Positions 3,958-32,797 of a stretch of DNA of 40,737 bases are shown here, piece by piece (the first letter of the stretch is position 1; each line of letters opens with the position of its first letter). This DNA is from Betaproteobacteria bacterium. Lineage in GTDB: Bacteria; Pseudomonadota; Gammaproteobacteria; Burkholderiales; Thiobacillaceae. Position numbers and translations under genes: made by a program. The notes under the pieces were generated by a model. The model saw nothing but the letters and a program-made list of their open reading frames with translations, was not told the origin of the DNA and searched no databases. The stretch lies in NCBI GenBank assembly GCA_020061585.1, contig JAGUXX010000264.1, forward strand, positions 1-40,737, given 5' to 3'.

Positions 3958-5043
3958 ATGAGTCGCATCGTCGTCGGCCTTTCCGGCGGGGTCGATTCCG
4001 CCGTCACCGCCTGGCTGTTGAAGCAGGCCGGACATGATGTAGTCGGCGTGTTCATGAAAAACTGGGAAGCCGACGATCTGGAAGAGGACTGCCCGATCGC
4101 CCAGGATTACCGCGATGTGCTGGCCATCGCCGAGGTGCTCGGCATCGAGGTCGAATTGGTCAATTTCAGCCGCGAATATCAAGACCGGGTATTCGCCTAC
4201 TTTCTCGCCGAATACCAGGCTGGCCGCACCCCCAATCCGGATGTGCTGTGCAATGCCGAAATCAAGTTCAAGGCGTTTCTCGACCACGCCCTGAGCCGCG
4301 GCGCCGAGCAGATCGCCACCGGCCACTACGCGCGCCTCGAAGGCGCATCGCCGACCCGGCGCTTGTTGAAGGCCACCGATGCCAACAAGGATCAGAGTTA
4401 CTTTCTCTACCGCCTGAATCAGCATCAGATCCAGCGGGCGCTGTTTCCGCTGGGCGAACTGCCCAAGCCGCGGGTTCGCGAACTGGCCCGACAGGCCCAT
4501 ATTCCGGTTGCCGAGAAGAAAGACAGCACCGGCATCTGTTTCATTGGTGAACGGCCGTTTCGCGAATTCCTGCAACGCTACATGCCGATCCAGCCGGGTG
4601 ACATGGTGACGCCGGAGGGCAGGGTGATGGGGCGACATCAGGGCTTGATGTATCACACACTCGGTCAGCGTAAGGGCCTCGGCATCGGCGGCATCAAGGG
4701 CGCCCAGGAGGGTGTGCCGTGGTTCGTCGCCGGCAAGGATCTGGCGCGCAATGAACTAATTGTCGTGCAAGGGCATCAACACCCATTGCTGTTGTCCGAT
4801 TGCTTGCGCGCCACCGATCTGAGCTGGATCGGCGCACCGCCCGAAAGCGGGCGGCGTTACACCGCGAAAACCCGTTACCGGCAACAGGATGCGCCTTGTG
4901 TTATTCAGGCAATAAATGACAACACGCTGGTTGTGTGTTTCGATCAAGCGCAATGGGCGGTGACGCCCGGTCAGTCGGTAGTGTTCTACGATGGAGCCAT
5001 CTGTCTGGGCGGCGGTGTCATCCAGGACAGCGAAAATATTTGA
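3958..5043 (+). CDS. mnmA: tRNA-specific 2-thiouridylase MnmA
   Basis: 361 aa. The N-terminal PP-loop SGGVDSAV (residues 8-15) binds ATP. The two catalytic cysteines are in LCNAEIKF and TGICFIGE, and the tRNA-binding [10 protein letters not shown] and [10 protein letters not shown] segments are intact. It makes the 2-thio group of 5-methylaminomethyl-2-thiouridine at the wobble position of Lys, Glu and Gln tRNAs, taking sulfur from a Tus/TusE or IscS relay. It follows nudJ by 10 nt, so probably co-transcribed. Start at the ATG right before [10 protein letters not shown]. Confidence 0.96.
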
Positions 5044-5073
5044 TTATTTAGTTTAACTATCGGGGCCAATATC

Positions 5074-6375
5074 ATGAATAGACGTGACTTTATCTGGACA
5101 CTCCCTGGCCTAGGGGCATCAATCTGGCTGACCGGCTGCTCGGCTGACCCGGTCACCGGCAAGAAGACCCTGGTGATGATGGGCAAGGAGCAGGAGATCG
5201 CCATCGACAAGCAGCATTCGCCGCACCAGTTCTCGGAGGATTTTGGCGTAACTCAGGATGCCGCGCTGAATCGCTATGTCGCCGATGTCGGTACTCGCCT
5301 GGGCAAGGTCTCGCATCGGCCGGACATGCCGTACAACTTCCAGGCGGTGAATGCCAATTACGTCAACGCCTACGCATTTCCCGGCGGCACCATCGCCGCC
5401 ACTCGCGGCATCATGCTGGAAATGGACAACGAGGACTCGCTGGCCGCGCTGATGGGCCATGAAATCGGCCACGTCAACGCCCGCCACTTTGCCGAACGGC
5501 AAGCCAAGAGCACGCTGCTGGATGTGTTTGTCGCCGGCGCGAGCGTCGCCACCGCCGGTAAAAATCCGCAGTACGGCGAGCTGGCGCAGATGGTCGGCAG
5601 TCTCGGCAGCGGCGCGCTGTTGGCGCATTACAGCCGCGATAACGAGCGCGAGGCGGATGCGCTGGGCATGGAATACATGGCCCGCGCCGGCCTCAATCCG
5701 ACCGGCATGCCGGATCTGATGAACATGCTGAACACGCAATCGAAGAACAAACCGGGCGCCCTGGAGTTGATGTTCTCGACCCACCCGATGAGTTCGGAAC
5801 GTGTCGCCAACACCAACCGGGCTTTGCAAACCACCTATGCCGATGCCGCCAAACGCCCCCGCCAACGCGAGCGTTACATGGACAACACCAGCAGCCTGCG
5901 GGCGTTGAAACCGGCCATCGTCGAGCAGCAAAAAGGCGAGGCGATGTTGAATCAGAAAAAATTTCCGGATGCGGAAAATCATCTACGCAAGGCTTTGGAT
6001 CTGGCGCCCAACGATTACCCCGGGCTGGTGTTGATGGCCAAGACCCAGATGGCGATGAAACGTCCGCAGGCAGCGCAACCCTTTCTGGCGCAGGCCAAGG
6101 CGATCTATCCCAGCGAAGCCCAGGCCAGCCATCTGGCCGGCGTCACCCACCTGCAACTGAAGCAGCCGGACAAGGCGCTGGCGGCGTTTCAGGATTTCGA
6201 TCGACTGCTGCCAGGCAATCCGAACACCACCTTCCTGAAAGGCTATTCACTGGAACAGATGCAGAACAAACGCGGCGCCGCCGAGGAGTATTACAAGTAT
6301 CTGCAAATGACCCGCCAGGGCGGCCAGGCGCAGCACGCATTCAATCGCCTGCAAGGCTGGGGCGTGGTCAAGTAA
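5074..6375 (+). CDS. M48 family metalloprotease with C-terminal TPR region, BepA-like lipoprotein
   Basis: 433 aa. The N-terminus MNRRDFIW...WLTGCSAD combines a twin-arginine-like motif with a lipobox (LTGC, Cys near residue 22), so it may be exported as a periplasmic lipoprotein. The zinc site HEIGH lies near residue 129, and the third ligand is in the downstream EREADALGMEY segment. After about residue 260 the sequence becomes helical, repetitive TPR-like (QQKGEAMLNQKKFPDAENHL and following). Domain order M48-TPR matches BepA/YfgC, which degrades stalled LptD and BAM substrates at the outer membrane. E. coli BepA has an ordinary signal peptide, so the lipobox is a difference worth noting. 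Gap of 30 nt after mnmA. Confidence 0.88.
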   Translation: MNRRDFIWTLPGLGASIWLTGCSADPVTGKKTLVMMGKEQEIAIDKQHSPHQFSEDFGVTQDAALNRYVADVGTRLGKVSHRPDMPYNFQAVNANYVNAYAFPGGTIAATRGIMLEMDNEDSLAALMGHEIGHVNARHFAERQAKSTLLDVFVAGASVATAGKNPQYGELAQMVGSLGSGALLAHYSRDNEREADALGMEYMARAGLNPTGMPDLMNMLNTQSKNKPGALELMFSTHPMSSERVANTNRALQTTYADAAKRPRQRERYMDNTSSLRALKPAIVEQQKGEAMLNQKKFPDAENHLRKALDLAPNDYPGLVLMAKTQMAMKRPQAAQPFLAQAKAIYPSEAQASHLAGVTHLQLKQPDKALAAFQDFDRLLPGNPNTTFLKGYSLEQMQNKRGAAEEYYKYLQMTRQGGQAQHAFNRLQGWGVVK

Positions 6376-6450
6376 GCTCATGGGGCGACTTGAGGTCTAC
6401 GACAGGAATAAACGGTTTGCTGACACCCGCTCGGCAAATCCGCATTCCCA

Positions 6451-7354
6451 TCATTTCACTATTTCCATCAACTTCCCGTAGCTGTCCACCACCTCGTACT
6501 TCACTTGCTCCGAGGTGATTTTGGCAAAGAACTTGCGCGCGCATTCGATCTTGGCCTCTTCGATTTTGCGCAGGTCCATGGAGGACATGGAGCCTTTGGT
6601 TTCCGCGACGAAGAAGACGTGTTTCACCTTGCCCGACTGGAATGCGATGGCCCAATCGGGGTTGTAGTTGCCCACCGGCGTGGGGATGTAATAGCTCCTG
6701 GGCAGCTTGGCGTACACCACGACTTCCGCGCTGGCGTCGAGTTCGCCGACGAACGTGCGCTCGTTGGTCGAATCGGTGAACACCTAGTCGTAAATGTGGC
6801 GAGCCACCTTGAAGCCCTTGCTCAGGTCTTCCTTCTTCTCCTGGGTGAAGATGTCGATGGCGTCGAGCCGGTACACCTTGTTGTGCTCGGTCTTGTGGGT
6901 GGCCGAGTAGCGCAGGATCATCAGCGGGTCGAACTCCGCCAATTTCTCGACGGTCGCCTTGCCCTCCATCCTCTGCGGCTCGTCCAGGATCAAGATCGGC
7001 CGGTTCTTCTTGATGACATCGATGGGCCGGCGCGACTGGAAGTCATCCAGCTCCAGGTAGATGCGCCGGTCACGTCGCATACCGAAGTCTTCTTCAGCTC
7101 TGACGAAACGGTGAGGTTCTGCCGGCGCTGCACCCCTTGCAGGTTCTCCAGCAACTGGCCGGGCGGCAGGGCAATCCTGTCGTTGGCGAAGCCGTCACCC
7201 TCGAAGCCGCCAGGGGCAGGGTACTGCTCAACCCGGCACGGCCGGGGTCGACGGCATACTTGAAGCCTCGGCTCTTCGGCTGGCCGGCGAAGCGATCCAC
7301 CACCGACCTGACGACGTCCGTTTGGTAAGCCTGTTGTTTGAATTTCAGTTTCAT
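6451..7354 (-). pseudogene. res: Type III restriction endonuclease subunit (Res), internally deleted remnant
   Basis: Three pieces of one Res protein can be read in order on the minus strand. The N-terminus (from 7354) reads MKLKFKQQAYQTDVV and VVDRFAGQP, then shifts frame into [18 protein letters not shown]. At about 7070 it jumps, by a deletion, into [10 protein letters not shown]...[12 protein letters not shown] (helicase motif II) and LRYSATHKT (motif III). An in-frame TAG at 6784-6786 then sits where homologues, as I recall them, have Tyr (HIYD-stop-VFTDS). The C-terminal [13 protein letters not shown] and VAETKGS segments carry the endonuclease-type motif. The Walker A segment and several hundred residues are missing, since Res is normally near 900-1000 aa. 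Non-functional. Confidence 0.85.
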
Positions 7355-7407
7355 CGATGGCCTGGCAATCCATTAGTACCCTCACTATTACCCCTATATG
7401 GAGGTAA

Positions 7408-8466
7408 TTACCCCTTCTTCTTCCACACCGCTCCGGGCCCGCGCCCTTGGCACATCAACACCCCGGCCGCCTGCTGTTCGCGCAGCACGCGCCGAACCAT
7501 GTCCCGGCTCACGCCGGGGCAGGCTTGCTCCAATGCGCTGATGGCGAAGCCCTTGCCAGGCGTTGCCGTCAGACGCTCGATGTTCGCCAGCACCAACTCC
7601 CGCTTCGAACCGCGCGGCGCAACCGTTTGCCCGACCCGCTCCTCGAACTCCCGGTAGACCGACTTGAAAATGGACAGCACGTAGTTGATGAAGGGCCAGG
7701 GATCGTGCCTGCCCTCGTGCCAGCCCTGGGAGCTTTGCTCCAGGGTTTCGTAGTAGCGGTCCTTGTTCTGCTCCACCAGCCGTTCAAGACTGACATAACG
7801 GCCCACCTCATAACCGAGGTGATAGCTTTGCAGCAGCCACAGCAGGCGGGACACGCGCCCATTGCCGTCGCGGAACGGGTGAATGCAGAGAAAGTCCAGA
7901 TTGAAGGCCGCCAGCAATATCACCGGCGGCGCCCAGCGCTGCTCGATGCCGGACGCCCAATCGGAGACCAGCGCCGCCATGTGGCGCGGGGTCTCAGCCG
8001 CCGACACGGTCTTGAAGCGTATCCGCTCGCGACCATCGGCATAGCGCTCGATGATGTCGCCGTCCTTCTCTTTGTACTGCCCCGCATCCCATATCTGGCC
8101 GCGCGCCAGGGCATGCAGCTGCTTGATCGTGGCCGCCGTCATCGCGATGTCGGCAGCCTGTCCGTGAATCCAGGCCAGGGCATCCCGATAGCCGCGCACT
8201 TCCTCCTCGTCGCGGTCGCGGAACAGCGGCTTGGGCGCCACCAGCACTTCGCGGATGCGCGACGCTTCCACCGCCACGCCCTCGATGCGGTTGGATGACA
8301 CCGCGCTTTCGATCAAGGCATGCTCGCGCAAGGCCTTCAAGCGCTGCGGCGACTGGTGGGTGAAAAGCGCCTGTTTGCCGCGAAATTCGCCCAGGTCCGA
8401 CAGGTACCAGGCGGTGGTAGCCGGCACCTGCAACTGGCCGGAGGCGAATAGCCTTAAGGTATGCAT
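7408..8466 (-). CDS. Fic family protein (AMPylase-type) with winged-helix C-terminus
   Basis: 352 aa from the ATG at 8466 (MHTLRLFASGQ). A longer in-frame start at 8622 would add residues translated from a REP-like repeat and is rejected. The complete Fic motif HPFRDGNGRVSR lies at residues 196-207. An N-terminal inhibitory motif of the S/TxxxE(G/N) type is present as SNRIEG (58-63), which in class II Fic proteins blocks ATP binding in cis. The C-terminal 60 residues look like a winged helix (ISALEQACPGVSRDMVRRVL). Fic proteins transfer AMP or related groups to Ser/Thr/Tyr. It lies between decayed mod and res remnants, a position Fic genes often occupy in type III loci. The frame is intact. 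Confidence 0.88.
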   Translation of the reverse strand: MHTLRLFASGQLQVPATTAWYLSDLGEFRGKQALFTHQSPQRLKALREHALIESAVSSNRIEGVAVEASRIREVLVAPKPLFRDRDEEEVRGYRDALAWIHGQAADIAMTAATIKQLHALARGQIWDAGQYKEKDGDIIERYADGRERIRFKTVSAAETPRHMAALVSDWASGIEQRWAPPVILLAAFNLDFLCIHPFRDGNGRVSRLLWLLQSYHLGYEVGRYVSLERLVEQNKDRYYETLEQSSQGWHEGRHDPWPFINYVLSIFKSVYREFEERVGQTVAPRGSKRELVLANIERLTATPGKGFAISALEQACPGVSRDMVRRVLREQQAAGVLMCQGRGPGAVWKKKG

Positions 8467-25330: not shown

Positions 25331-25882
25331 TTATCGCGTAGCCAATGAGACAATTTCTGGGTAACTCAGTGTCGGACAAACCCGTCTGAATTCGTTGATC
25401 TTGTTCACGGTCCCGCTAATGGATGGGTAAGATGATTCGGAAAAATCAACCGGGCAGGTTGCGGCTTCGTCGTGCTGACTGGAAAACTCAAGCCGGTCCA
25501 TGTTTTTGACGGCTGGCGGATGCGCGCCAAGAAAACCGACATGGCGCAACATCCATGAACCCCTGACAGGATTCTTTGGGTGTAGAGGTCCGAGAAACGC
25601 CGCTGAAACATTCTTGTATCGCCCCTCTCGAACCATCTGCAAAAGCGTTTCAGACACCTCCGCAAAGGCAAACAACTTATCCGCTTTGGCGATCAATTTG
25701 ACAACATGGCCGTATGCCGGCAGATCGTTATCAGGGTGACCAAGAACCAGCGGCGCGGGCTTGTTTTTTTGACTGTAGGCGTATGCCGAAACGGTCAAAT
25801 CGGTATCTGAAAAGTTCAGGGTCTGCCCGCTCATGGCGGTATGAGTACCAGCCCGAAAAATCTGGAAAAGCTTGGTTTCCAT
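25331..25882 (-). CDS. Mu gpI-like phage protease, short form
   Basis: 183 aa, about half the length of Mu gpI (361 aa). The N-terminal 125 residues match the Mu-type head protease/scaffold family: FQIFRAGTHTAMSGQTLNFS, then KPAPLVLGHPDNDLPAYGHV, KNVSAAFLGP and LRHVGFLGAHPPAVK, with the conserved GHP and SAAF (nucleophile Ser) segments. The remaining 58 residues (EFSSQHDEAATCP to the end) do not resemble the family's scaffold part. In Mu the protein matures the procapsid. It begins 7 nt after mor, whereas in Mu many genes lie between, so a deletion or a deliberate reduction brought them together. Confidence 0.75.
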   Translation of the reverse strand: METKLFQIFRAGTHTAMSGQTLNFSDTDLTVSAYAYSQKNKPAPLVLGHPDNDLPAYGHVVKLIAKADKLFAFAEVSETLLQMVREGRYKNVSAAFLGPLHPKNPVRGSWMLRHVGFLGAHPPAVKNMDRLEFSSQHDEAATCPVDFSESSYPSISGTVNKINEFRRVCPTLSYPEIVSLATR

Positions 25883-25889
25883 GCCGCGA

Positions 25890-26300
25890 CTATCCTTGCC
25901 TGACCAGCGCCGAGCCGCTGCCGAGACGATCTTCCGCGCGCCGCATCGCGTTGCGAATGCTGCGCACTGTCAGGCCGTGTCTGATCGCTAGCTTTGACTG
26001 GCTATCGGTCTTGCTCTGTTGGTAAATCAACAAATCTCGGATGGCGCTGCGCCAGCCCAGCGCGCGGGGAATTTCTATCTTCTCGCCTTGATAGATTTTA
26101 CTGAGCGCCCTGCCGGCTTCCATGCCAATCAAGCCGGCTATGGCGTGGTCGGCAGTCATTTCGATTGGCACATAAAGACTTGTACCGCCCCGCGCTATGA
26201 CCAGTTTCAATGCCGCGTCCACTCCGATGATTTCCGCAATTTGGCGTAGCTCATCGGGGAGTAGTGCTAGAACTTCCTGGTCGGCGCTGTCGAGAGACAT
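25890..26300 (-). CDS. mor: Mor-family transcription activator of the Mu-like element
   Basis: 136 aa. It matches the Mor/C activator family: an N-terminal dimerisation part (LLPDELRQIAEIIGVDAALKL and the GGTSLYVP strand) and a C-terminal HTH (SKLAIRHGLTVRSIRNAMRR). In Mu, Mor switches on the middle promoter, which drives C and thence late genes. Here the only genes left downstream are the protease-like gene and the unknown gene, so those are its likely targets. Separated by 135 nt from the small ORF upstream. Confidence 0.88.
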   Translation of the reverse strand: MSLDSADQEVLALLPDELRQIAEIIGVDAALKLVIARGGTSLYVPIEMTADHAIAGLIGMEAGRALSKIYQGEKIEIPRALGWRSAIRDLLIYQQSKTDSQSKLAIRHGLTVRSIRNAMRRAEDRLGSGSALVRQG

Positions 26301-26642: not shown

Positions 26643-26953
26643 GCTGCGCCCCCTTGTTGTGCCAGGTGGGCGCGGTATACGTCGAAGCCGTGAGCGTTGC
26701 CGGCAAAGTAGGCATCAAACTGCGCGGAGCCGGCCTTGTACGGGCAATGGATACGCTCGCCGCGCATCTTGAACTTCAGCACGGCCAGCAGGCCGGCGCG
26801 ATATTCGGCGCTGCGCGGGTTGCCCATTGCCAGGGCGGCGGCGGTGATGCTCTCGGGGGTGTAGGCGGCGCGGTACGCCATGCCGGGGACGTGCTGAATC
26901 TTGCTCAGGGTTTCGGCAGAAAAGCCGGGGAGTGAAACGCGGGTGTCAGCCAT
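26639..26953 (-). CDS. Hypothetical protein of the Mu-like element
   Basis: 104 aa, soluble, start ATG at 26953 with an aggagcc-type ribosome site upstream. Features are GMAYRAAYTPESITAAALAM and a C-terminal FDAYFAGNAHGFDVYRAH. No domain recognised. It is the first coding gene after the structured non-coding region and its terminator, so it needs its own promoter within 26954-27112. Coupled to the next small gene by a 4-nt overlap. Confidence 0.55.
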   Translation of the reverse strand: MADTRVSLPGFSAETLSKIQHVPGMAYRAAYTPESITAAALAMGNPRSAEYRAGLLAVLKFKMRGERIHCPYKAGSAQFDAYFAGNAHGFDVYRAHLAQQGGAA

Positions 26954-27112
26954 GATGGCTCCTATCTGTTGCGGTTTGAATTCCCGCTCCCCGTCGCCAA
27001 ACGGGGGGCGGAACCGGACAGGGTTGGCGAACCGGCAACAGAAACCGGCAGACCCGAAGGTCTCCCCGCCCGGCCCGCCGTAACTGATAGGCTGGCCGTG
27101 CGCTGCGGACGT

Positions 27113-27135
27113 AAAAAAAGACGCTGTGAGCGTCT
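27113..27135 (-). terminator. Intrinsic terminator on the minus strand
   Basis: Arms agacgct (27119-27125) and agcgtct (27129-27135) with the loop gtg. On the minus strand the stem is followed directly by a seven-T tract (complement of 27113-27119). It would end the early transcript that covers B, gemA and the structured region. The stretch 26954-27112 shows no clear gene. Confidence 0.8.
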
Positions 27136-27242
27136 ATCCGCTCTGTTGTATCCAGGTCGCCAAACCCGGACGCGGGATTGACCGCGTCGGGTTGAAGAAT
27201 GCGCCGGGTGGTTTCGGGTTGTCAAGCGGTTATCATGGCTGC

Positions 27243-27355
27243 GAGTCGATGGATTGCCCCGTTGCGCTCATACCGCGAAGCCGTTCCGGACGTTAGGGGC
27301 TCGCATCGACTCACCCGAGTTTGAACTGGTTCTATCTTGCCTTCGGCCAGGATAG
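27243..27355. repeat. Long inverted repeat plus adjacent hairpin in the structured non-coding zone
   Basis: Arms gagtcgatg (27243-27251) and catcgactc (27304-27312) enclose a second stem, gcccc (27256-27260) with ggggc (27296-27300). Just beyond, ctatc (27332-27336) and gatag (27351-27355) close a hairpin with an inner gcc-ttc-ggc. No coding frame covers this region convincingly. Confidence 0.6.
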
Positions 27356-27372
27356 CCGATAGCCTGTAAATC

Positions 27373-27470
27373 GCCGTGACGAAGCATGGAAATTTTCGGA
27401 GACGCCATGCGGCCCCTCTCGTAGGAGATCAAGGGTGCAATGGAGGGACTTCCGGCCTCCCGTCACGGCC
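27373..27470. ncRNA. Cloverleaf-like structured repeat, copy A (candidate ncRNA)
   Basis: A 97-98 base unit closed by a 9-bp stem gccgtgacg/cgtcacggc (27373-27381 with 27461-27469). Inside are three hairpins. The first is gcatgg/ccatgc (27384-27389, 27405-27410). The second is a variable arm, ccc/ggg with inner tctc/gaga. The third is ggagg/cctcc (27442-27446, 27456-27460), abutting the closing stem. The conserved joining segment tgcaat precedes the last arm. The minus strand is the likely sense, as the element's early genes run that way and a minus-strand terminator lies downstream. Not a tRNA: loops and arms do not fit. Whether RNA or DNA is the active form is unknown. Confidence 0.5.
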
Positions 27471-27524
27471 CCATTCCCGCCACCAGTGTTTGCACTGGAT
27501 GGACGCCCGCTGTAGTCTCATTCC

Positions 27525-27622
27525 GGCCGTGACGAAGCATGGAAATTTTCGGAGATGCCATGCGGCTCTGCCATCGGGAACAACGGATGCAATGGAGGGA
27601 CTTCCGGCCTCCCGTCACGGCC
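27525..27622. ncRNA. Cloverleaf-like structured repeat, copy B (candidate ncRNA)
   Basis: Second copy of the unit at 27373-27470, nearly identical except in the middle arm. Closing stem ggccgtgacg/cgtcacggcc is 10 bp (27525-27534 with 27613-27622). Arms gcatgg/ccatgc (27537-27542, 27558-27563) and ggagg/cctcc (27594-27598, 27608-27612) are conserved. In the variable arm, tctg/cgga replaces the ccc/ggg pairing of copy A, so pairing is kept although bases differ. A hairpin ccagtg-tttg-cactgg (27483-27498) lies between the copies. Confidence 0.5.
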
Positions 27623-27874
27623 ACCTTTAGCAGGCTGACCGCTTTCGACAGTCTCCCCGTACCCTCTCAACGCTCAAGCAATAACCCGCCGATAGCGTCA
27701 ATTCATCGCATATCGCGTTAACTATTTTCGGGAATGCAAGGGTAGCCACACGCAACAAAAAATCGACTGTAGGGCTTCTACGGGCTTCGGGCTTGTGGAT
27801 TTCCGGCCCGTTTCACCCCGTCAGGCGGCCATTTCCGCCGACGAATCGCCCCGCAAGCCGCGCCGTTGCTGGGT
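27623..27874. other. Non-coding stretch between structured repeats and gemA
   Basis: About 250 bases downstream of gemA with no credible open frame on either strand and no strong promoter pattern noticed. Short repeated gggcttc words occur near 27773-27793. Confidence 0.45.
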
Positions 27875-28330
27875 TTAACGCGGGTTCGCCGTCTTTATCG
27901 CGGCTTTGTCGGGGTGGGTCTTGCTGGATTCGATCCAACGTTGCAGGCCCAGAATCAGCGCGCGCATGCCGGCCTTGTCCAGAAAGCGGGGGTTGTCCAC
28001 CTTGGCGACACGGCGGCAAAACGTCGCCAAGCCTGGATCGTCTAGCCCGGTGTAGCCTTTTTCCTTGGCAAGACGCCAGGCGAATTCCCATTGCTTTTCG
28101 GTCGGGCGGTCCGGCCCGCTGCCGCCGCGCGGCCTGCTGGCGACGCTGGGCTGGAAGCCATTGGCGCGCAGTTCGTCGCCCAAGCGGGAAAGTTCGGCGT
28201 CGTCGCACTCGGTACAGCTCCGCTTGCCGGTGTGCTTTTCCAGCCAAGCGCGATATGTGGCATCGTCCCAGCCCATGAAACGCTGTCCGGTCTTGATGAG
28301 CTTGATGAGGCTGGCGCGGTTCATGTTCAC
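27875..28330 (-). CDS. gemA: GemA/gp16-family regulatory protein of Mu-like phages
   Basis: 151 aa. It matches the Mu GemA/gp16 family: MNRASLIKLIKTGQRFMGWD, DDATYRAWLEKHTGKRSCTE with a Cys pair, then PTEKQWEFAWRLAKEKGYTG and the C-terminal helix LILGLQRWI. In Mu it modulates host gene expression and decatenation. It starts with GTG at 28330, overlapping the B stop (GTGA), or at the ATG two codons later. Last protein gene of the early cluster. Confidence 0.85.
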   Translation of the reverse strand: MNMNRASLIKLIKTGQRFMGWDDATYRAWLEKHTGKRSCTECDDAELSRLGDELRANGFQPSVASRPRGGSGPDRPTEKQWEFAWRLAKEKGYTGLDDPGLATFCRRVAKVDNPRFLDKAGMRALILGLQRWIESSKTHPDKAAIKTANPR

Positions 28331-29604
28331 GCCTTGCCCATCATCAAGGCGGCATCCTTCAGCCCTTTTGCGGTCAGCTTTTGACCGGGGTTCATTTTCT
28401 CGAATGCCGAAATAATCATCACGAGGGTTCTAAGCTCGCCGCTGTAGCCGGGGCGCGCGGCAATATTCCGGGCGGCCCTCTTCATGGTTTCATTATCGTA
28501 GCCGGCCCAATCCATCCAAGCGTTAACGTCTTCCTTAGTGGTCTGCATTGCGGGCATTTGGTAGGCACGATTCGCCAGGCCGGCGAAAGTCTGCTTTTTT
28601 TCGTCCCATAGCGTGCCTTTAAGGTCGCTATTGCCCTGTAAAACCATCGGCATAAGCAAGTCGTCATAAAGCGAGTGAAACACTTCGATTGCTCTACTTC
28701 CTTTATCGGTTGTGAAGTGAACCTCATCAAGAAGAAGCAAATCTTCCCGCCCGAGTGTGTCACGTATAATTTTACCGGGGTCGCCTGAAGTGGTGGCAAT
28801 CAAGCCCTGTTCGTAAAGTGCGGCGACAATGCGCCCAAGTATCGCGGCTTCGGTTGTATCGCCTTTCTTGAACCGCACATAGACGACACCAGAAGAGCGC
28901 CAAGTTTTCGGGTTCATCCGCCAGTAATGCACAGCGGCATGACTCTTGCCAATACCTACTTCGCCGATGATCGAAACAATCGATTTTGTAGCTATGGCAA
29001 GGCCGTAATAGCTCTGAAGCGTCATGAAGGTCGGGGTATGGGCGAAATTCAAACTGCCGTCTATGCCGTCTTCAATTTCCAGCCATTCAGCAATGGCGCG
29101 AACGATCTTGGCTTTTTTTGGCCGCCAACCGTTGCGCGCGTCGTCACTACAGCGGGTCAAAACCAAACTCAAGTCAAACGCTTCAATTTGAAGCAACTTT
29201 GCCAAGCTGGAGACGGTATGCGTGCCTGCCATCTTCTGTTCAGCTTGCGTGATTAAATCATCGGCCTCATCAACCCCTCGCATCCATTCCGTAAGCCGCT
29301 TAATCAAATCTTCTTTTTCTGATGCGTGTAGCAGCGATATATCCTCATCGATGCCGCTTTCTTGGCGCATAAAGATGCTGATGACGCGCCGATCTACGCC
29401 GGCTTCTTCGGCCATCGCGCGCAAGCTGACGTTGAAACGCTCCATGCGCCCCCGTACATCGGGCAGCATGCTTGCAAGATCGTCATTCAGGCGCGAATCG
29501 ATCTCCATAATTTCAGCGTGTAAATTTCTTGTTACTTCCGGCCTGGTCGGGTTTTCGAGTAGCATGGCAAACCTTTCGATTGTTGCTGTGGTGGTGGCGA
29601 TCAT
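28327..29604 (-). CDS. Mu B-like AAA ATPase, transposition target-DNA activator
   Basis: 425 aa from the ATG at 29604; another start 13 codons later has a better aaagg ribosome site. Residues 50-85 form a Cro/XRE-like HTH (FNVSLRAMAEEAGVDRRVIS), and a second helical region lies near 130-180. The AAA ATPase part has Walker A GEVGIGKS (214-221) and Walker B LLLLDEV (289-295). The C-terminal domain fits the DNA-binding end of MuB. It selects and delivers target DNA to the transposase and gives target immunity. It is longer than Mu B (312 aa), as in BcepMu-type phages. Overlaps gemA by 4 nt. Confidence 0.88.
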   Translation of the reverse strand: MIATTTATIERFAMLLENPTRPEVTRNLHAEIMEIDSRLNDDLASMLPDVRGRMERFNVSLRAMAEEAGVDRRVISIFMRQESGIDEDISLLHASEKEDLIKRLTEWMRGVDEADDLITQAEQKMAGTHTVSSLAKLLQIEAFDLSLVLTRCSDDARNGWRPKKAKIVRAIAEWLEIEDGIDGSLNFAHTPTFMTLQSYYGLAIATKSIVSIIGEVGIGKSHAAVHYWRMNPKTWRSSGVVYVRFKKGDTTEAAILGRIVAALYEQGLIATTSGDPGKIIRDTLGREDLLLLDEVHFTTDKGSRAIEVFHSLYDDLLMPMVLQGNSDLKGTLWDEKKQTFAGLANRAYQMPAMQTTKEDVNAWMDWAGYDNETMKRAARNIAARPGYSGELRTLVMIISAFEKMNPGQKLTAKGLKDAALMMGKA

Positions 29605-29620
29605 CTGGACAGGGGTTGGG

Positions 29621-31930
29621 TTAGCGGCCCGCCCCCTGTTTTTTCTTGCTGTACTGTTCTGCCACTTTCGACATTTCGGAAAAAGGGTTATGCAATGGCT
29701 TAACCTTGCCAAAATTGCGCGGCGGCACGAATCTGTCCATGAAGTGCGAAACTTCGCTGGTTTCCTTGTCCAGTTCTTCACCTGGTTGCAAAACAACCTT
29801 CTCCGGCTTCGGCGCGGGTAACGCCTTGTTTTTTTCTTCCAGCGCGTCTACCTCCGCGCCCAGACTGATTCGGCTGCTGAATTTTGTCTTTGGCGCGGGC
29901 GCGGCTGCTTTCACGCTGCGGGTGATTTCATCCACCATGTCGAGCTTTTCCGTTTCTGCCTTCATGTCGCGCAGATGTCGATTCATGATGCCCTCGCGCC
30001 GTGATTGTTCTTTTGCGCCAGCTTGGTCAAGCGGGACATATGCCTTGTTGAGCGGTATCGCCTCCAAGCCCCGCATGTCGGGGGCATTGGGCAGAAAAAT
30101 CAGCATATCCGGTGCCCACTTGGCATAGCGAACCGTTACCTTGCTTTGAATGAATGGGATCAATACATCCGCCATGTAATACGCATTGGAAAGTTCGATG
30201 CCATTGTTTTGAACCTTGATGGTTTTTTCCTCACTCATCGCACAGATCAGCGCGATTCGGTCAACTTCCGTAGCCCCCCATCCCCTCTCCATGTAGTCAG
30301 AAAATGACTGATTGGGAGTCTTGCCTTTCAGATTTCCTTGCTGCGGTAGGAGGTGATACCACTTCAGCGCCATATCAAAATCGGCCTCGAATTTAGCCGG
30401 GTCTTGGTACGGTTTCGTTTTCTTTCCAAGCTTCGGAATTCTTTGATTCATGCGATCTCCGCCGATGTAACCCGGCAACAAAGACAAGACCTTTTCAACG
30501 TTGGAAAACGCGCCCTCGATCGCTTTTGCTGCTGCGTTGTAGGGGAGGGCGCGGATAACCTCGCGGCCTTCTCGCGCGGCGTTTTCATCATCGTTTTTGT
30601 ACTGTTCTAGGTCGAGAATTTCGGCGGTAAAGCGTCGAATGCCTGACGCCAAAGCGGCCAGTTTTTTGAAGCCGTCCAGGATGGAATCGAGTATTGCCTT
30701 ACCGAACCCGCGTGAACGCTTGCCGTTGTATTCAGACCCGTTATCGAGGTAAAGATGCTCAGGCAAACCCCATTCAGACACCATCGCGGCAAAGCTCGCC
30801 CAAACATCGGCCTGTGTGATGCCTTGCCCCTTTTCAAGCAAGACCAGCGTTGGGAATAGGCGATGTGTTGCCAGGTCATACCAAGCAATCAAGCGATATG
30901 TTGCTGGGCTTCCGTCCTTTCGTTCAACCACAATATCCACCGGGTGAACGTCGCCAACAACAACTTCCATCGGCTGTATCTTGCTATGGTCAAGGCGGAT
31001 TCTTGGCTTGAACTTGTCCGCGTGTTTCTTGGCGTTTTTGTGTTTTGTGTGCAGGCGGCCAAAGGGGGCGTAACGCTCAATTGCATAGCGGCCAAGGCTG
31101 CATTCATCCATGTTGGCTGTAGGCCAACCAGACTCCCGGCAAAGTTCCTGCAATTTTGACGCGGCCAGGTTTTCAATCTTTGGCCAAAGCCCGCCCGCTT
31201 CAGCCCATAGGCTCTTGATATACGTTCCGATGGTTGCCGCGAGAAGCTGCTTTTGTTCTTCAGGCAGGGGGCATGCCATATCGAACCGGCGAGACAAGAA
31301 GACTCGCGGCTTTTCTTCTGTGCGGTGGCGGCGGATCAGGGCCGGCAATCCATATCCGGTTTCATTGGCCAACTTCTCATAGGCTGTAATCCAATTGTTG
31401 ATCGTCTTCAACGAAAACCGCTTTGTCCTGCCATCCGGAAGAACATGCGCGCGGCCTGCAATTTCCTTAATGATGCCGCCGCGCGCCAGTGTGTTTGCTC
31501 GATGTTCTAACGCGGGGATGATGAGCTTTTCCTTCCATAACGCATCATCCAGCCAAGCGACTTTTGGCGGCTCTCGAAATTCCTGCTTGCCAATTTCGTT
31601 GGCCGCCACATCTGCCAGGACGGGAAATAGGGCGGGCAACTTGATCTTGTTGACGGCTGGCAAGCTTTGCTTCGGTTGCCGTTCGTTCCAAGCTTGCCGA
31701 AGCTCATCGGGGAGGGTGAGCGGGTTGACCTGGTAGGCTTTGCCGTTGACTTTGCGAACTTCAAGAGAGAAGCCGCGCCATGTCTTGCCGGAGTGGCAGC
31801 GGGCGAGGGCGTCGCGAGCGTTCCGTTCGCTGATGCCAGCAAGAGCGGCGAATTCCGCCACGGAAAGCCATCCCCCCCCATGTGCGGGAAGACCTGTTGC
31901 GCCGGCCTCAGTCGTCAACGATGACGCCAT
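29621..31930 (-). CDS. Mu A-like DDE transposase
   Basis: 769 aa. The N-terminal winged HTH (WLSVAEFAALAGISERNARDAL, residues 21-42) is followed by RGFSLEVRKVNGKAYQV, the Mu DNA-binding domain. The catalytic core holds the DDE triad: D327 (VVVGDVHPVD), D396 (LYLDNGSEYNG) and E472 (KAIEGAFSNVEK). A C-terminal charged tail would contact the B ATPase. It cuts and joins element ends to target DNA. Overlaps the Ner-like gene by 23 nt; B starts 16 nt downstream. Intact, with no frameshift seen. Confidence 0.93.
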   Translation of the reverse strand: MASSLTTEAGATGLPAHGGGWLSVAEFAALAGISERNARDALARCHSGKTWRGFSLEVRKVNGKAYQVNPLTLPDELRQAWNERQPKQSLPAVNKIKLPALFPVLADVAANEIGKQEFREPPKVAWLDDALWKEKLIIPALEHRANTLARGGIIKEIAGRAHVLPDGRTKRFSLKTINNWITAYEKLANETGYGLPALIRRHRTEEKPRVFLSRRFDMACPLPEEQKQLLAATIGTYIKSLWAEAGGLWPKIENLAASKLQELCRESGWPTANMDECSLGRYAIERYAPFGRLHTKHKNAKKHADKFKPRIRLDHSKIQPMEVVVGDVHPVDIVVERKDGSPATYRLIAWYDLATHRLFPTLVLLEKGQGITQADVWASFAAMVSEWGLPEHLYLDNGSEYNGKRSRGFGKAILDSILDGFKKLAALASGIRRFTAEILDLEQYKNDDENAAREGREVIRALPYNAAAKAIEGAFSNVEKVLSLLPGYIGGDRMNQRIPKLGKKTKPYQDPAKFEADFDMALKWYHLLPQQGNLKGKTPNQSFSDYMERGWGATEVDRIALICAMSEEKTIKVQNNGIELSNAYYMADVLIPFIQSKVTVRYAKWAPDMLIFLPNAPDMRGLEAIPLNKAYVPLDQAGAKEQSRREGIMNRHLRDMKAETEKLDMVDEITRSVKAAAPAPKTKFSSRISLGAEVDALEEKNKALPAPKPEKVVLQPGEELDKETSEVSHFMDRFVPPRNFGKVKPLHNPFSEMSKVAEQYSKKKQGAGR

Positions 31931-32117
31931 CTTTCAGCCCCAGTAGCACTGCGATTTTGTGAGACTGCCCAGAACGGCACGCGCGTTCCTCTTTGAGAAT
32001 CGTAGCCGTCAGACGTGCATCTACGCCATTCGACCGTGCCCAGCCGGCTACGGTCTTGCCTTCACGGGCGAACCTTTCTTTAACCTCTTGATGAGATACG
32101 AGCTGGTTTTGTTGCAT
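31908..32117 (-). CDS. Ner-like/phage DNA-binding regulator
   Basis: 69 aa from the ATG at 32117, chosen over one at 32141 because aggagaccgac is right upstream. A helix-turn-helix of phage-associated type covers most of it: HQEVKERFAREGKTVAGWAR and NGVDARLTATILKEE. First gene of the leftward early operon, divergent from the repressor at 32192. By analogy with Mu Ner it would repress both early and repressor promoters at the shared operator. Confidence 0.75.
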   Translation of the reverse strand: MQQNQLVSHQEVKERFAREGKTVAGWARSNGVDARLTATILKEERACRSGQSHKIAVLLGLKDGVIVDD

Positions 32118-32152
32118 GTCGGTCTCCTGTAGCATGGTCACAAAGTCACACT

Positions 32153-32191: not shown

Positions 32192-32797
32192 ATGAAACAC
32201 GAAATAGCGGAACGATTGCGCGAAGAACGTAAAAGGCTCGGGTTGTCTCAAGAAGAAATGGCAAAACTTGGCGGCGTGACGGCACGAAGCCAGCGCAACT
32301 ATGAATCAGGCGCTCGGTTGCCTGATGCTGCTTATTTGGCCGCCATCGGTGTGCGTGATGTTGATCTTCAGTACGTGCTTAGCGGAATTCGGTATGAAGC
32401 CGAAATGTGGGCGCGGGAATACCTTCTTCATGCAATGTGCGCAGCACTCAATATCGACCATGATTTTTTACAACAGACTATCAAGAAAGCTGAAGACGTT
32501 GAGTTTTCCAGCCTAACGCCTGTCATCGGCGAAGATTTTCGGGAAAAATTAACCCGTTTTCGGGCTTTGGGTGACAGCTTGCTGAGTTCCGCACCTGGTG
32601 GCGCTGCGCTCGCATTGCACGGGATCAATCAAGAACTGCTCACGGATGTATTGGAATGCATAGAACAAGCCGGGTCCGTGTCGCGGGTTGCGGCCAGAAA
32701 GAAGGCTCAGATAGTGGCGATGATCTATCTCACAAGTCTGGCAACAGGTAAGGTGGATATTGGATTGGTGAAGTCCGCTATCAAACTTGCTGAATAA
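32192..32797 (+). CDS. XRE-family repressor of the Mu-like element
   Basis: 201 aa. The N-terminal Cro/CI-type HTH is LREERKRLGLSQEEMAKLGG followed by VTARSQRNYESGARLPDA (residues 8-45). The rest is helical, with no S24 peptidase domain, so RecA-dependent self-cleavage is not expected. The only rightward gene of the element, as for Mu c. It probably keeps the transposition operon off through the palindrome at 32153-32174. Confidence 0.85.
   Translation: MKHEIAERLREERKRLGLSQEEMAKLGGVTARSQRNYESGARLPDAAYLAAIGVRDVDLQYVLSGIRYEAEMWAREYLLHAMCAALNIDHDFLQQTIKKAEDVEFSSLTPVIGEDFREKLTRFRALGDSLLSSAPGGAALALHGINQELLTDVLECIEQAGSVSRVAARKKAQIVAMIYLTSLATGKVDIGLVKSAIKLAE

Follow-up and report, generated by a model that had tools for sequence, protein, structure and literature searches.

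Tandem units in a Mu-like prophage remnant as probable members of a phage family of tRNA-shaped small-RNA genes

Contig JAGUXX010000264.1 of a Thiobacillaceae bacterium (assembly GCA_020061585.1; C173, whose entire 40,737-nt stretch we call the window) contains a decayed Mu-like prophage flanked by host genes, and between its gemA and mor genes stand two tandem structured units, U1 and U2 (Table 1). Our findings suggest that Mu-like phages carry a stand-alone small-RNA gene and that U1 and U2 are copies of it. Judging from comparison of the sequences, it is highly probable that the fold is real and that it belongs to a phage RNA gene, and fairly probable that tRNA mimicry is the basis of its function. 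A stand-alone RNA that mimics tRNA in trans is the best overall explanation, and we consider it rather likely to hold. The pooled family set comprises 101 distinct copies in 87 loci, cited here by their numbers (L011 and so on).

A first-pass annotation of this DNA had described two units of about 97 nt, alike outside a variable middle arm, and this description holds: direct repeats of 41 nt (98% identity) and 43 nt (93% identity), with a spacing from U1 to U2 of 153 and 152 nt, enclose a divergent middle. The proposed closing stem of 9-10 bp (9 bp in U1, 10 bp in U2) and the inner hairpins likewise reappear in minimum-energy folds. Plus-strand folding z scores are -2.44 (U1) and -3.17 (U2), with 4/200 and 1/200 shuffled sequences equally stable, and minus-strand scores are -1.50 and -2.01, with 16/200 and 7/200. 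The structured element then claimed has homologues beyond this locus, carried by phages and prophages and showing strong covariation. When 54 copies were aligned by sequence only, 82.4% of cells could pair (slid controls, 38-45%), 26 of 31 pairs varied on both sides and none of 500 shuffles reached the score. With all 101 copies, 88.4% of cells pair, 29 of 35 pairs vary on both sides and the covariation score is 0.557 versus 0.166 after shuffling; the main helix of the second arm, H2, is the most weakly paired (70.8%).

The loops of the first and third arms, H1 and H3, form a 4-bp contact, CGGN with N'CCG, that is paired in 99.2% of cells across the 101 copies, and two of its four pairs are among those varying on both sides. 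Its last pair (columns 34-137) is formed in 96 of the 97 copies with letters there (A-U 67, C-G 20, U-G 7, G-C 2); in a set thinned to below 80% identity 69 of 70 copies pair, and none of 20,000 shuffles was as good. The way in which copies were collected bears on these figures. The first copies, except those of the window and L011, came from patterns fixing parts of both loops, and most copies in the sources scanned with our first covariance model, R1, came from patterns fixing parts of the H3 side; copies from the family, class, phylum and Desulfuromonadia genome scans were found by model, and those at gene F through that gene. Loci found via gene F rather than the RNA pattern also swap loop letters, by eye: CGGG/CCCG in L260, L267 and L279, and CAGC/GCTG, with the second pair exchanged too, in L250. 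Conservation independent of the patterns includes an A at column 16 (101/101) and a G-C last closing pair (97/101).

In the model-fitted alignment the junctions measure 2, 1 and 3 nt in 101/101 copies and H3 abuts the closing stem (0 nt). Therefore, we conclude that the family has the topology of a tRNA. Comparison of the copies shows that the plus strand folds into a four-way junction in which a 9-bp acceptor-like stem is followed by 2 nt, a D-arm-like H1, 1 nt, H2, 3 nt and a 5-bp T-arm-like H3, with the pairing of the H1 and H3 loops located where tRNA has its elbow contact. The likeness to tRNA (RF00005) thus extends over the order and lengths of the junctions, a 5-bp T-arm-like helix against the closing stem, a loop-loop contact of the first and third arms, and a similar size (median copy, 90 nt). 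The review PMC4810234 describes the elbow of tRNA, a recognition site for the ribosome and other partners, as formed by the contact of D-loop and T-loop.

The first-pass annotation had the units transcribed from the minus strand together with the early genes, which the family does not support: G-U pairs on the plus strand outnumber A-C mismatches (62 vs 26 in the closing stem and H3, 128 vs 99 over all pairs), and copies that have a -10 element have it on the plus strand, ahead of the closing stem. On these two grounds the plus strand, antisense to gemA and mor in the window, is the likely RNA strand. A TATAAT-like hexamer (at least 5/6 letters) precedes 54 of 100 copies versus 14.6% of shuffled upstream sequences, and in 44 of these 54 it ends 4-9 nt before the closing stem (median 6 nt). 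Two copies add a TTGACA, at 15 nt (L202) or 17 nt (L218) from the -10. Strand asymmetry, loop-loop pairing and promoter together disfavour the DNA cruciform that had also been considered. We rejected an intrinsic terminator after the closing stem as a general 3' end, a run of four T within 15 nt being found in only 21/101 copies. The copy L202:2909-3002, whose TTGACA stands 15 nt before GATAAT, lies antisense inside a 1319-aa open frame that has no Pfam match.

Mu-like genes, defined by similarity to our F, G, portal, protease, gemA or mor queries, occur in 74 of the 87 loci. F (PF04233), mor, A, B and the protease of the window are named from family matches, whereas gpG, the portal and the relatives' protease are what we presume them to be from resemblance. 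Among the 13 remaining loci (L074, L100, L118, L121, L137, L155, L202, L219, L220, L221, L225, L228, L229), L121 adjoins a gpT head gene and L074 resembles Nitrosomonas islands with gemA and mor. Wherever F is in the locus, the copy is antisense and downstream of it (63/63, 59 of them within 200 nt), as would suit a cis-antisense RNA whose transcription opposite the late operon lowers F and G expression. We consider this improbable: in the Nitrosomonas prophages L094, L107, L115, L144 and L148 the copies stand upstream of mor on its strand (in L148 with gemA further upstream), those of the window are antisense there, some copies are beside no recognised phage gene, and conservation resides in loops and junction, not in target-complementary stretches. 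Because copies occur antisense behind F, in sense orientation upstream of mor and away from any recognised phage gene, a core role in antisense base-pairing, one of the earlier suggestions, is disfavoured more generally. The position among head genes, the complementary loops within each molecule and the tandem copies (two or three in 13/87 loci) would also suit a packaging or head-assembly RNA with intermolecular loop-loop contacts, like the phi29 pRNA. We think this analogy very improbable, as some copies lie in the early region and others next to nothing recognisable as a phage gene, and the site can also hold tRNA-like RNAs whose T-arms are ordinary.

Those RNAs emerged from the flanks of gene F. 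Viral contigs hold at least 568 relatives of F, of which the F-anchored sample took the best 80; the query (A8) was built from eight RNA-bearing loci. A second covariance model, R2, finds the RNA in 10 of these 80 contigs, always directly behind F and antisense; six are new. Because the query came from RNA-bearing loci and four of the ten contigs were already known, 10/80 is no estimate of prevalence for Mu-like phages at large. The flank was readable in 77 F loci: this RNA is present in 10 of them, and 16 others carry, on the same antisense strand, a T-arm with the canonical TTCRANY loop. The latter amount to 16 of the 67 readable loci without this RNA, with none on the sense strand and a background of 67/5126 windows (these included); L325 is probably a chance match, and L251 and L252 are alike. 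Nine sequences align as one tRNA-like family, A10, whose first arm is TTTCC..GGAAA and whose T-arm is of the GGTTC type; A10-type RNAs also lie between two copies of our family in L074, L094, L107 and L144 (Nitrosomonas prophages), and in L192 one immediately precedes a copy. Six more align as family A11 (first arm ACCCC..GGGG), whose acceptor and T stems swap pairs, by eye, and whose arm at the anticodon position folds with a short loop. An Rfam scan of 11 T-arm loci gave a single tRNA match, in L273 (33.3 bits; cut-off 29). Further folded stretches of about 100 nt lie antisense behind F in L281, L274, L300 and L311, without a T-arm and without an R2 match.

Small ribozymes often show loop-loop contacts and short conserved single strands, and both are features of this family. 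Hammerhead and twister ribozymes are moreover enriched near Mu-like phage genes, as the accessible text of PMC10085705 reports, so the neighbourhood is shared. A new class of self-cleaving ribozyme, cutting its own or a neighbouring transcript as the hammerhead and twister ribozymes there may do, nevertheless seems to us an improbable explanation, if slightly less so than the cis-antisense one. Rfam ribozyme models match neither the window nor six relatives, copies with a -10 would begin at the foot of the closing stem and have little leader to cut, the product appears to be the whole domain, and canonical-T-arm RNAs fill the same site in other phages.

Outside Mu-like surroundings, an RtcB gene lies 474 nt downstream of the copy in L100 and a KptA/Tpt1 gene 185 nt downstream of one in L118. 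In L118, from a Geobacter metagenome-assembled genome, positions 3990-7702 (-) hold, all in one direction, an RNA copy, a 191-aa ORF, an RNA copy, KptA/Tpt1 and an IrrE-like protein. Such neighbours would suit a Y-RNA-like scaffold or a partner of RNA repair (RtcB/KptA) rather than a defence decoy; in Salmonella, the accessible text of PMC7790460 describes YrlA with a tRNA-like domain and Y RNAs in the rtcBA operon. Our family shares with YrlA its tRNA-like character (topology and loop-loop pair) and, in one host island, an RtcB neighbour. It differs in being mostly phage-borne and in lacking Ro60: no Ro60/TROVE gene was found in 28 RNA-bearing assemblies, many of them incomplete and L099 outside the search, while the control was positive in 1 of 14 genomes (Deinobacterium chartae). 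Moreover, RtcB or KptA neighbours occur in only 2 of the 87 loci, and no Rfam model matches the units even at E up to 10. We regard this explanation as unlikely.

The earlier statement that the units match no recognised structured RNA stands: no Rfam 15 model falls on them at the gathering cut-off or, over 26900-27900, at E up to 10, the only matches there being C4, isrK, c4-a1b1 and a chance mir-3017. The C4 and isrK RNAs share the neighbourhood, and C4 is also present in 4 of 13 related loci scanned (L107, L115, L144, L148); but RF01695, RF01394 and RF03163 match 27001-27201 on the minus strand, not the units. The assertion that no ORF explains the units needs qualification, as plus-strand frames of 84 aa (27376-27630, spanning both) and 60 aa (27539-27721, spanning U2) exist. 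The 84-aa frame, the only one searched against PHROG, has no match there and the paired columns covary, for which reasons we reject a protein gene over the units. A host repeat was likewise rejected (the 4.6-Mb assembly holds only U1 and U2, remaining BLAST matches being of 15-27 nt, and one weak match elsewhere in the genome, C112 or L002, has no unit around it), and a CsrA-type GGA sponge was dropped by reasoning alone. The RAGATH search looked beside Mu-like phage genes, the neighbourhood of 74 of our 87 loci; 33 of the RAGATH motifs were said in 2024 to be without known function, according to the accessible text of PMC11061315. Our family is set apart from Rfam families only, and it may coincide with a published RAGATH motif outside Rfam. 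We found no title describing this RNA, most subscription papers and supplements being outside our reach, so prior publication is possible.

The copies were assembled as follows. When the unit region was compared by BLAST with 101 genomes (its own and those of relatives), one relative was informative: G005, a member of the same genus, has two tandem copies after the remnant of a similar prophage and on the strand of its genes. A two-loop pattern returned 79 stretches in viral contigs and a slightly altered version 71 in genome contigs; a stem check reduced these to 70, and removal by eye of eight chance matches (L105, L112, L125, L133, L135, L147, L150, L161) to 62, of which 54 are distinct. 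Two patterns fixing the H3 side only returned 62 and 20 stretches. R1, run over 53 sources, gave 39 matches, mostly pattern-found copies; by rank, it matched 3/117 genomes of the family (one weakly), 8/369 of the class and 4/398 of the phylum, the window's genome being counted each time. R2 matched 9/244 genomes of the class of L100 (Desulfuromonadia by their names), two of them weakly and L100's own included. Weak model hits (L026:12333, L195, L198, L201 and L165, the G143 match included in the family-rank count) and hits cut by contig ends (L199, L204) were not used, and near-identical records were left out of alignment A6 (L022, L035, L057, L068, L108, L114, L120, L126, L159, L205, L207, L212, L230, L231). 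Three BLAST queries gave no match in annotated phages, and a gemA-based search of viral contigs gave no relative. Cultured strains with copies are Nitrosomonas sp. Nm166, N. oligotropha Nm45, Nitrosospira sp. NpAV and Caldimonas manganoxidans ATCC BAA-369.

Within the remnant, the units do lie between a gemA-like gene, which we take to be gemA although its family, phrog_286, carries no function, and a minus-strand terminator, as first annotated. An isrK-like RNA, with C4 beside it, has that terminator as its 3' end; C4, isrK and c4-a1b1 stand upstream of mor on the strand opposite to the units, from which C4 and isrK are 180-370 nt away. A further closed structure at 27243-27312 (+) has a 9-bp stem, GAGTCGATG/CATCGACTC, with CTCATACCGCGAAG inside (fold z -2.79), and stretches resembling it adjoin the units in L228 and L229. 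A separate conserved element, GGTAATATTC...TTTCCGGGAAACCGGG, is found in L107 (about 1700-1815, -), L148 (about 1770-1880, -) and L142 (about 1495-1600, +), in both orientations relative to the units, with a variant, by eye, in L115.

Table 1. Features of the window, with the two further tRNA-like families given by locus.
Feature	Position	Strand	Basis
RNA unit U1	27373..27469	+	folding; model R1 64.1 bits, E 1.5e-15 (U1 is a row used in building R1)
U1 closing stem, 9 bp	27373-27381/27461-27469	+	folding
U1 arm H1	27384-27389/27405-27410	+	folding
U1 H1-loop CGGA	27397..27400	+	proposed pairing with 27451-27454; family loop-loop covariation
U1 variable arm H2	~27411-27437	+	folding
U1 arm H3	27442-27446/27456-27460	+	folding
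U1 H3-loop TCCG	27451..27454	+	family loop-loop covariation
RNA unit U2	27525..27622	+	folding; model R1 59.7 bits, E 2.8e-14 (U2 is a row used in building R1)
U2 closing stem, 10 bp	27525-27534/27613-27622	+	folding
U2 arm H1	27537-27542/27558-27563	+	folding
U2 H1-loop CGGA	27550..27553	+	proposed pairing with 27603-27606; family loop-loop covariation
U2 variable arm H2	between H1 and H3	+	folding
U2 arm H3	27594-27598/27608-27612	+	folding
U2 H3-loop TCCG	27603..27606	+	family loop-loop covariation
Head protease, partial	25331-25882	-	family match
mor, late/middle transcription activator	25890..26300	-	PF08765 3.1e-13, phrog_836
C4 antisense RNA	27001-27085	-	Rfam, 73.3 bits
isrK-like RNA	27114-27188	-	Rfam, 57.4 bits
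c4-a1b1 target	27149-27201	-	Rfam, 38.3 bits, below cut-off
gemA-like gene	27875..28330	-	phrog_286
Mu-like transposition gene B	28327-29796	-	phrog_296 and phrog_310 cover B and A
Mu-like transposition gene A	29621-31930	-	phrog_296 and phrog_310 cover B and A
HTH gene	31908-32141	-	
Repressor-like gene	32192-32797	+	
A10 family, antisense behind F or beside family copies	L094:4233-4309, L255, L257, L258, L290, L251, L289, L192, L115		
A11 family, behind F	L273, L284, L285, L291, L301, L306	-	

A number of observations weigh against a stand-alone tRNA mimic. The junction lengths derive from a model-fitted alignment. Unlike tRNA, the family has a 9-bp closing stem, an H1 of 7 bp, longer than a D-stem, and an H3 loop of 9 nt (98/101; consensus R-A-C-N-N-C-C-G-N) that is not TTCRANY; H2, whose length and sequence differ between aligned copies, does not keep a 7-nt anticodon loop, and no conserved CCA was seen in the alignments. 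ARAGORN finds no tRNA in the window, and RF00005 does not match the units. Upstream, a good -10 is missing from 46 of 100 regions, the column counts reveal no prominent -35, and no promoter match was found in the window itself, which fits a decaying prophage; U1 and U2 may be silent. At gene F, 51 of the 77 readable loci carry neither kind of RNA, and the Rfam scan, at E up to 1, matched nothing in 10 of its 11 T-arm loci. Of the 80 F loci, 46 were run through ARAGORN, which calls three genes, all at the F site: L301 has a tRNA-Arg (ccg), L306 a tRNA-Arg (gcg) and L273 a tRNA of undetermined anticodon. Since two of the three receive an anticodon, the A11-family RNAs may decode. Finally, RNA-repair neighbours are scarce. 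Mu-like genes are absent from eight Desulfuromonadia loci, two of them weak hits, and three of these eight have such a neighbour; two of the three are apparently one syntenic island, by eye, the RtcB match in L235 covers 52 aa only, and L236-L240 have neither RtcB nor KptA within about 1.5 kb.

We nevertheless favour the stand-alone tRNA mimic, which covers the topology, the loop contact, the start site, the company at the F site and the RtcB/KptA neighbours. About half of the copies have a -10 of their own, positioned so that transcription would begin at the foot of the closing stem and yield the folded domain itself. Such an RNA would work in trans: it would keep busy a protein that recognises the elbow and acceptor of tRNA and would thereby shield phage development. 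The most likely target would be a host protein, tRNA-cleaving or tRNA-binding, that the phage encounters during infection or induction. We offer the specific role of a decoy against tRNA-targeting proteins tentatively. More speculative still is the proposal that the site behind F is a slot for interchangeable tRNA-shaped RNA genes from three or more sequence families, the majority apparently non-decoding, in which the family described here would have replaced the elbow by a 4-bp kissing contact and would serve counter-defence by posing as tRNA to host proteins that cut or sense it.

It is well established that phages carry whole tRNAs, and tRNA-like structured RNAs as such are already known; the arrangement at the F site is the newer part. 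If true, a recurring phage slot for tRNA-shaped, seemingly non-decoding RNAs would add a new type to the RNA genes of phages. The family is defined, with natural loop variants, and it can be tested directly because it is present in named cultured strains. It also bears on why ribozymes and structured RNAs cluster near Mu-like genes, a clustering described in the accessible text of PMC10085705.
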